The notes under the pieces are model-generated. The model saw only the letters and a program-made list of their open reading frames with translations. It had not been told where the DNA came from and did no database searches. From the IMG/VR virus record IMGVR_UViG_3300031726_000668, positions 1-34,958 of that record: a stretch of DNA of 34,958 nt. One strand, given 5' to 3'. The translations under genes and the position numbers were made by a program. The DNA comes from a virus. Below are positions 815 through 34,958 of this stretch, piece by piece; the stretch's first letter is position 1; every line of letters starts with the position of its first letter.

Positions 815-1177
815 ATGAGCGCCGCGGTCTCGCCCCAGCTGCTCACGCGCGAGGCCGCGGCGCGCTTCCTCGGCGTCACGTCGAAATCGTTCACGCGGCA
901 CGTGCAGCCGCAGATCAACACCATCTACGTCGGACGCCGTCCGATGTTCGCAGCGAAGGACATCGAGCAATGGGTCGAAGACCGCAGGGATGGCGTCTCT
1001 ATCCAAAGCGCGGCTGGCTCTACGTCGCATTCACGTTTGCGGGCGTCGAGCACCGTATCGCCCTCGGTACGCGCGATCATGGCGAGGCTGGAAAGCTCGC
1101 CGCGAAAGAGTACGCCGAGGTTGTTTCCGGTCGACGGCGGCCGCTCCGGAAGCGGGGGCCCGCCCTCCTCGACCTGA
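815..1177 (+). CDS. HTH DNA-binding protein, excisionase-like (MerR/HTH_17 type)
   Basis: The N-terminal 55 residues (LLTREAAARFLGVTSKSF, then VGRRPMFAAKDIEQWVEDR) match the short helix-turn-helix plus wing of excisionase and HTH_17 proteins: a helix, 'AARFLGV' turn, recognition helix, and a basic beta wing ending in 'DIEQWV'. The ATG lies 3 bases after the stop of the DUF6745-type gene. From about residue 52 the frame overlaps the start of the integrase gene, and residues beyond about 60 are low-complexity Ser/Arg and probably carry no fold. Its position before the integrase suggests a recombination directionality factor. Alternatively, it and the integrase were once one polypeptide. The N-terminal domain is well supported; the role is inferred. 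Confidence 0.65.
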   Translation: MSAAVSPQLLTREAAARFLGVTSKSFTRHVQPQINTIYVGRRPMFAAKDIEQWVEDRRDGVSIQSAAGSTSHSRLRASSTVSPSVRAIMARLESSPRKSTPRLFPVDGGRSGSGGPPSST

Positions 1178-2152: not shown

Positions 2153-2346
2153 ATATCCGTACCCGAAGGGAGGAGACGATGCGAAACCGGGGTGACCGAC
2201 GGGGATTGAACCCGCGACAACTGGAGCCACAAGGCAGAACTCGAGCCGAATTCGGTAATAGTTACCGGCATCCGTCTGGATATCAACGGACCCTGACGGA
2301 CCAGGAAATAGCGGGTCGCACCAGCGAATCCGTACCGGGTCCGGAT
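2153..2346. repeat. Candidate integrase arm sites around attP
   Basis: Three copies of an ATCCGTACC-like motif flank the tRNA-like core: ATCCGTACCC at 2155-2164, ATCCGTCTGGAT (self-complementary ends) at 2270-2281, and the inverted pair ATCCGTACC...GGTCCGGAT at 2328-2346. Repeated short motifs on both sides of a core are expected for arm-type binding sites. The spacing and recurrence are seen in the sequence; the binding role is inferred. Confidence 0.5.
2189..2236 (-). other. attP: attP core: 3' half of a tRNA-His gene (anticodon loop to 3' end)
   Basis: Read on the minus strand, the segment gives an anticodon loop TTGTGGC (anticodon GTG, His), the stem strand TCCAG, variable bases TTGTC, a T arm GCGGG-TTCAATC-CCCGT and the acceptor strand CGGTCAC followed by C73. 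It closely parallels the 3' half of bacterial tRNA-His. On the other side of the anticodon loop the match stops: two of five anticodon-stem pairs are mismatched and no D arm follows. A 3' tRNA fragment next to an integrase gene is the hallmark of an attP that restores the host tRNA after integration. The CCA end is not fully encoded (CC then G). Confidence 0.82.
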
Positions 2347-2387
2347 ATTTCTCAGGCGCTCGCTGCGATGGCCCGGCGAGGTGTGTG

Positions 2388-2498: not shown

Positions 2499-2614
2499 TC
2501 CGCCGCATCCTCTACCTCTTCGATCACCACACGGAGTTCGCCGTCATCGCGGCGGCGGTGCTCCTCGTGCTCGTCGACGTGCTCGCGCGCGTGCTGATCG
2601 CGGGGCTCCAATGA
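2495..2614 (+). CDS. Small membrane protein (39 aa)
   Basis: Starts at ATG 2495 inside the stop of the preceding gene (ATGA) and ends in another ATGA overlap with the DnaA-like gene. One transmembrane segment (about residues 14-36, FAVIAAAVLLVLVDVLARVLIAG) follows a short basic, aromatic N-terminus. No family recognised. Membership of a chain of coupled genes is the main support. Confidence 0.55.
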   Translation: MIRRILYLFDHHTEFAVIAAAVLLVLVDVLARVLIAGLQ

Positions 2615-2955
2615 GCACTATCGAGTTCGAAGAGTCGCAGTTCACGGGCACGACGCCGGACCGGACGTGCATCGGCGTCGCGCCGTTCGACCTCGACGCG
2701 CTGGTCCGCCGCATCGCGCGCGCGCATGGCGCGACTCCTACGGAGGTTCTCGGGCCGCGAAGGACGAAGCACCTCTGCGCAGCTCGTCGCGAGCTCTATG
2801 TCGCGCTCCGCGCAATAGGCTGGTCGTATCCGGCGATCGGCCGGTACGTGTCGCGAGATTACTCGACGGTGATGAACGCAGTGAAGCCGTGTCCCTCGAA
2901 GGAGGCGTGTCGCGCGCGCGCCAAGCTCCGTTGGGCGACGAGGGGTGAACCATGA
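2611..2955 (+). CDS. DnaA domain IV-like DNA-binding protein
   Basis: 114 aa. Residues 35-95 (DALVRRIARAHGATPTEVLGPRRTK, then AARRELYVALRAIGWSYPAIGRYVSRDYSTVMNAV) follow the pattern of the C-terminal DNA-binding domain of DnaA: a helix with 'IARAHGATPTEVLG', basic 'RR.K', a second helix 'ARRELYVALR', then the HTH ending 'RDYSTV', equivalent to the DnaA signature '.DHTTV'. No AAA+ domain is present, so it is a stand-alone domain, which is seen in some phages and elements. It may bind the phage origin or DnaA boxes, acting with the replication-initiator-like gene at 3445. Start and stop overlap neighbours by ATGA. The domain call is solid; the role is inferred. Confidence 0.75.
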   Translation: MSTIEFEESQFTGTTPDRTCIGVAPFDLDALVRRIARAHGATPTEVLGPRRTKHLCAARRELYVALRAIGWSYPAIGRYVSRDYSTVMNAVKPCPSKEACRARAKLRWATRGEP

Positions 2956-34268: not shown

Positions 34269-34958
34269 ATGAGATCAAAAACGCTCTACACGCTGACCGA
34301 CGAACACCGCGCGCAGCTCGCGCCGTGGCGGGACAAATGGATCGCTAACGCTCTGCGGACAACGCCGCAGACGGACGAGGATCGGACGAAGGCGCGGACC
34401 GCGATCCGTGGGCTCTACACGGCGGCGAAGCTCCCAGTGCCGGAGCGCGACGTGTTCGTCGCGTCGCCGATTACCGGCGCGATCGCGGCGTCGGTCGCGG
34501 CGGGAGTGTGGTGGATCCGAGACCACCAGGGCGTGGCTCGCAAGCTCTTCGGCGTCATCCCCTCGGAAGCGCAGATCCGGGGCTCAATTGCGGCGGCCTG
34601 CGCGATTGCCGTAGCGCGCGGCATGTCGGCGGTCCGACATGAACCGCTCCCCCCGGTGCCGGAGATCGTTGCCGACGCCGCGACCTACGCCGCGACCTAC
34701 GCCGCGACCTCCGACGCGACCGACGCCGCGACCGAAGCCGCGACCTACGCCGCGACCTCCGACGCGACCCGAGCCGCGACCGACGCCGCGACCCGAGCCG
34801 CGACCTACGCCGCGACCGAAGCCGCGACCGACGCCGCGACCGACGCCGCGACCGAAGCCGCGACCTACGCCGCGACCGACGCCGCGACCCTAGCCGCGAC
34901 CGAAGCCGCGACCCGAGCCGCGACCTACGACGCGACCCGAGCCGCGACCGACGCCGCG
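34269..34958 (+). CDS. DUF6745-type protein, N-terminal part (runs off the window)
   Basis: ATG 34269 with GAAGAGGGG upstream; open to the window end (230 codons, no stop). The N-terminus '[58 protein letters not shown]' matches the start of DUF6745 proteins ('W...W...al.t.p.......a...lY...glp.P...v...SP'). Residues up to 135 are an Ala-rich helical domain, followed by at least 23 four-residue repeats. The rest of the gene is at 2-811. Joining the two window ends directly would shift the frame; 2 more bases, or 2 plus multiples of 12, would restore it. Confidence 0.75.
34674..34958 (+). repeat. 12-bp tandem repeat array encoding xAAT units, right-hand part
   Basis: About 23.75 units of a 12-bp repeat (core GCGACC plus a variable codon and GCC), encoding D/Y/E/R/S-A-A-T tetrapeptides. 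The first position varies (D, E, Y, R, L, S); the A-A-T positions are nearly fixed, apart from a few 'SDAT' and 'YDAT' units. The array continues at 2-73. Repeat number in the real genome is uncertain. Confidence 0.95.

Follow-up and report, generated by a model that had tools for sequence, protein, structure and literature searches.

The window analysed here, the whole 34,958-nt stretch of the IMG/VR virus record IMGVR_UViG_3300031726_000668, carries a tyrosine integrase gene and the gene of a small helix-turn-helix (HTH) protein on one side of a short segment that corresponds to the 3' half of a tRNA-His gene. This segment starts at 2188, 150 nt past the integrase stop at 2037, and is convergent with the integrase gene. 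On its other side lie genes for a DnaA-like HTH protein, a replication initiator, a RusA-like resolvase, a terminase and a P22/SU10-like portal (Table 1). With a PF00589 domain and the conserved R, H/R, H and nucleophilic Y, represented by R218, R305/H306/R308, H328 and Y337, all invariant among four relatives (integrase alignment A1), the integrase fits the tyrosine recombinase family as judged from its sequence. The small HTH protein may act as an excisionase; it has weak matches to phrog_597 (DNA binding, E 2.3e-5) and phrog_66 (excisionase, E 2.2e-4), and it is kept upstream of the integrase, at 38–44% identity, in the three related viral records L003 to L005. The DnaA-like protein, encoded at 2611–2955 (+) between the attachment site and the replication initiator, is also small and has the C-terminal HTH domain of DnaA without its ATPase domain. 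No near-identical nucleotide match was found when the first 20 kb of the window were compared with 50,697 phage records. Another IMG/VR record, IMGVR_UViG_3300031232_000481 (9195 bases), encodes six proteins (terminase to g16239) that are 99.7–100% identical to those of the window and is, on the strength of these proteins, a fragment of the same virus.

Table 1. Coordinates of the integrase gene, the attachment core and associated features in the window
Feature	Position	Strand	Basis or remarks
Small HTH protein, candidate excisionase / recombination directionality factor	815..1177	+	Overlaps integrase start
Tyrosine integrase gene, 355 aa	970-2037	+	PF00589 E 1.4e-10 (over 180-339); phrog_1 integrase E 1.9e-27
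Candidate arm-type integrase site ATATCCGTACCCG	2153..2165	+	Integrase side of core; ATCCGKACC motif
Putative attP core, 3' half of tRNA-His(GUG)	2188..2232	-	Exact match to Labilithrix sp. MAG JAHBWD010000036.1 tRNA-His
Core segments	in order 2232->2188	-	Anticodon loop TTGTGGC (positions 32-38, GTG anticodon); 3' anticodon strand TCCAG; variable loop TTGTC; T arm GCGGG-TTCAATC-CCCGT; acceptor strand CGGTCAC; discriminator C73; then CCG
Overlap region of 7 bp predicted for strand exchange (anticodon loop TTGTGGC)	2226..2232	-	Homology break point; analogy with class-A sites
Candidate arm-type sites, inverted pair CCGTACC/GGTCCGG	2326..2348	.	Far side of core; conserved block ACCGGGTCCGGATAT

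Read on the minus strand from 2232 to 2188, the core is TTGTGGCTCCAGTTGTCGCGGGTTCAATCCCCGTCGGTCACCCCG, and it occurs exactly once in the window. It runs from anticodon-loop position 32 to C73 and includes 3 nt of 3' flank, giving 45 nt in total, and the block of identity with the host gene has abrupt edges on both sides, at the first base of the anticodon loop and 3 nt beyond C73. The preliminary description had placed a 48-base core at 2189–2236; its reading of this DNA as a tRNA-His 3' half holds, while its limits have to be moved to those of the identity block. The parts that it named, from the anticodon loop, TCCAG and TTGTC through a full T arm to the acceptor strand, are all present together with C73, and homology is indeed lost at the anticodon stem: the shared block opens with the loop, and bases 2233–2236 read TGCC on the tRNA strand as against TGGA in the host. 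These four bases are non-homologous, and the two that agree are best taken as a chance agreement. The 5' half of tRNA-His is absent from the window, which is why ARAGORN called no tRNA at the core, and an Rfam cmscan of the window gave no hit, which is unsurprising for half a tRNA. The exact core was found in no other viral contig record.

A counterpart in a host genome was located by scanning 84,980 bacterial and archaeal species genomes with a 42-nt exact pattern, for which the sole match was the contig JAHBWD010000036.1 of a Labilithrix sp. metagenome-assembled genome (MAG), the genus name being that given by its submitter. The matched gene (L002, 755–829, minus strand) is a complete, uninterrupted tRNA-His(GTG) and is identical to the core at 45/45 nt; by its sequence it is an empty attB. 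Among 183 Polyangiales genomes surveyed, eight came within two mismatches of the core, and the match was exact only in the Labilithrix MAG. Labilithrix is placed in the Polyangiales, Myxococcota, and from this match the likely host order of the phage is Polyangiales, with a host near Labilithrix. It had been suggested earlier that the core, once sought in host genomes, should match the 3' half of a tRNA-His gene and so reveal both the integration site and the host, an idea that would fail if no tRNA-His gene matched. Such a gene does exist, in the form of a single intact and unoccupied site, and the prediction of site and host gains support from this match, from the adjoining integrase, from the cores of related phages and from the tRNA junctions of more distant relatives.

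The closest integrases in IMG/VR are those of L003, L004 and L005, with 51–52% identity to that of the window. All three records carry a tRNA-His 3' half at the 3' end of the integrase gene, antisense, in the same orientation and with the same start at the anticodon loop, and their cores are like that of the window at 36, 39 and 40 of 42 nt. There are small differences in layout, as homology in the three relatives reaches another two or three bases (GGA) into the 5' anticodon strand, where the window reads CC and its homology starts at the loop itself, and the integrase reading frame ends a few nucleotides inside the core in L003 and L005, about 12 nt before it in L004 and 150 nt before it in the window. 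The L004 core equals the tRNA-His of the Polyangiales genome G070 over 42 nt, while those of L003 and L005 each differ by one mismatch from other Polyangiales tRNA-His genes; each phage core thus tracks a different host variant of the gene. In the integrase tree the four proteins form one clade (support 100/97), and their relatives in the tree adjoin tRNA-Leu, tRNA-Lys and tRNA-Arg genes. We consider it an even chance that this clade represents a recurring means of attachment, specific for tRNA-His, in a group of Polyangiales phages not yet described, with cores of about 42 nt that would follow the host closely enough to assign genus or species.

The arrangement suggests how integration would proceed. 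The integrase would pair the attP core with an attB formed by the 3' half of the host tRNA-His gene, and strands would be exchanged within the 7-bp anticodon loop, joining the host 5' half to the phage-supplied 3' half in an intact hybrid tRNA-His next to the integrase gene, while the displaced host 3' half would mark the far end of the prophage. The tRNA half carried by the phage would in this way allow insertion into a tRNA-His gene without breaking it. Cleavage is predicted to fall within 2226..2232 by analogy with other tRNA attachment sites, among which crossover at the anticodon loop is one of the recognised sublocations (PMC4383910). Integrase overlaps are usually 7 bp long with a flanking dyad (PMC8371274), and the arrangement of TTGTGGC agrees with this, being flanked by the imperfect inverted repeat CTGcc/TCCAG, whose attB counterpart is the anticodon stem CTGGA/TCCAG. 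Arm-type sites are proposed as candidates at 2153–2165 and 2326–2348. The ATCCGKACC motif, which was picked after the fact, has three copies in the window that flank the core and all lie within 120 nt of it, and the block ACCGGGTCCGGATAT aligns across all four attP regions and is partly invariant. Since the density of local repeats around the core is not unusual for a GC-rich genome, the case for these arm sites rests mainly on conservation in the four phages.

Bacterial chromosomes hold more distant relatives of this system. Integrase relatives occur in 32 of the 183 Polyangiales genomes, many of them adjoining tRNA genes, and terminase relatives in 25. No prophage of the window's integrase clade was found at tRNA-His, either in these 183 genomes or among 377 genomes drawn from the phylum, so that integration by the phage itself is something we infer. 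An intact tRNA with an orphan 3' half as the flanks of an element is nevertheless seen both in distant integrase relatives, at tRNA-Leu, and in other elements, at tRNA-His. G090 has about 9.8 kb, including the gene of a 39%-identical integrase, between an intact tRNA-Leu(GAG) and an orphan 3' copy whose first bases, CTTGAGG, are the anticodon loop. G123 encodes a 33% identical integrase about 150 nt from the tRNA and convergent with it, like the attP of the window, and here too an intact tRNA-Leu(GAG) is paired with an orphan 3' half that is homologous from the anticodon loop on. The repeat at tRNA-Lys in G138 is limited to the portion made up of T-arm and acceptor, and the sublocation therefore varies among distant integrase relatives. 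No tRNA adjoins L010 and L011, the closest of the chromosomal integrases (45%), and the terminase-bearing Polyangiales contigs contain neither a tRNA-His nor a related integrase. In L016, L021 and L028, the tRNA lies downstream of the integrase relative in the same direction and is not convergent with it, which misfits the simple 3'-half layout.

In four further genomes (G056, G073, G133 and G141), an intact tRNA-His is accompanied by an orphan 3' half that starts at or just before the anticodon loop. No relative of the window's integrase was detectable in the stretches fetched from them, and they therefore show only that other elements use the tRNA-His site. A tyrosine-recombinase-like reading frame in G133 (L065, 6962–8632, minus strand) sits at one end of a stretch of about 80 kb between the intact tRNA-His and the orphan half; it overlaps the orphan half near the 3' end of the frame or of the half, which recalls the attP inside the integrase gene of phage Mx8. 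In G141:C19 (L067, 2207–13444) the intact tRNA-His and the orphan half are 11.2 kb apart and mark a small integrated element; a simple search for motifs picked up no tyrosine recombinase within it.

Sequence identity with the host gene, the position beside the integrase gene, the recurrence of the core in related phages and the unoccupied site in the host combine to make us highly confident that 2188–2232 is the attP core of a podovirus-like, temperate phage that infects Polyangiales, an order of the myxobacteria, which are predators living in soil, and that this core would recombine with the 3' half of tRNA-His. Phages can carry tRNA fragments, and a chance resemblance or a transduced fragment without attachment function would sit easily with the lack of an observed junction of this integrase clade in the two genome sets. 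Such an origin is highly improbable for an exact match of 45 nt when dinucleotide shuffles give an expectation of zero copies, even allowing three mismatches. It would also have to account for the same fragment, with the same orientation, break point and position next to the integrase gene, in three phages whose integrases are only 51–52% identical, and for the match of each phage core to a different host variant.

The two contig ends are not exact repeats of each other, as might be the case if the window were the end of an integrated prophage and the core an attL or attR. This is very unlikely: phage genes flank the core on both sides, which identifies it as attP, and no tRNA 5' half accompanies it. 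In addition, one 12-nt coding repeat (GCGACCGACGCC-like) is common to the two ends (34672–34958 and 7–73), which is what a circular genome opened within a repeat should show. The genome is for this reason probably circular and cut in the repeat, where it is perhaps also miscollapsed; a reading frame with a DUF6745 domain opens the window and one with the repeat closes it, out of frame by one. The only ARAGORN call in the window, a tRNA-Pro at 34844–34936, sits in this low-complexity repeat and is probably false. Extremely improbable is a tRNA-dependent lysogeny in which integration breaks the host tRNA gene and a phage tRNA gene replaces it (PMC10865867). That system shares a tRNA-overlapping attB and a tyrosine integrase with the present one, but its homology is about 10 bp, whereas the 45-nt core of the window restores the whole 3' half, and the window contains no credible phage tRNA gene and no tRNA-His gene.

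For an uncultivated phage whose first 20 kb had no nucleotide match among the phage records, the reading of the core as attP provides an integration site that can be tested and the order to which the host probably belongs, and it is in this host assignment that its main value lies. To our knowledge, few phages have been described for the Polyangiales, and the integrase-attP cassette could serve as the start of an integration vector for this order.

Among phage genomes, the only related integrase found in the 50,697 records is that of Caudoviricetes sp. MW202476.1 (Manatee Spring), with 32% identity, in a different setting, a 77-kb genome annotated as a siphovirus. The Myxococcus phage Mx8 is likewise a temperate myxobacterial phage with a site-specific integrase, but its attP lies inside the integrase gene, the 3' end of which is altered on integration (PMC6070905), whereas the core of the window is located outside the gene and past its stop. 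The attP sites of mycobacteriophage Int-Y systems have a common core of 30–45 bp with a tRNA 3' half (PMC10865867) and agree with that of the window in core length and content and in having flanking arm-type sites, for which the window offers candidates, while the host phylum differs. The closest correspondence is with the class A sites of the Islander collection of 2083 islands, the anticodon-centred tRNA attachment sites of tyrosine integrases (PMC4383910, citing Williams 2002). As in these, the element carries a tRNA 3' half including its 3' end, homology extends from the anticodon loop, here from position 32, to the 3' end, an intact tRNA would be restored and the integrase adjoins the site. 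We therefore see no difference in kind: the core is an ordinary class-A tRNA attachment site that follows a well-known strategy, newly exemplified by this integrase clade, by tRNA-His as its target and by a phage of the Polyangiales, and what is added is the link to a phage not assigned before and to the order from which its host probably comes.
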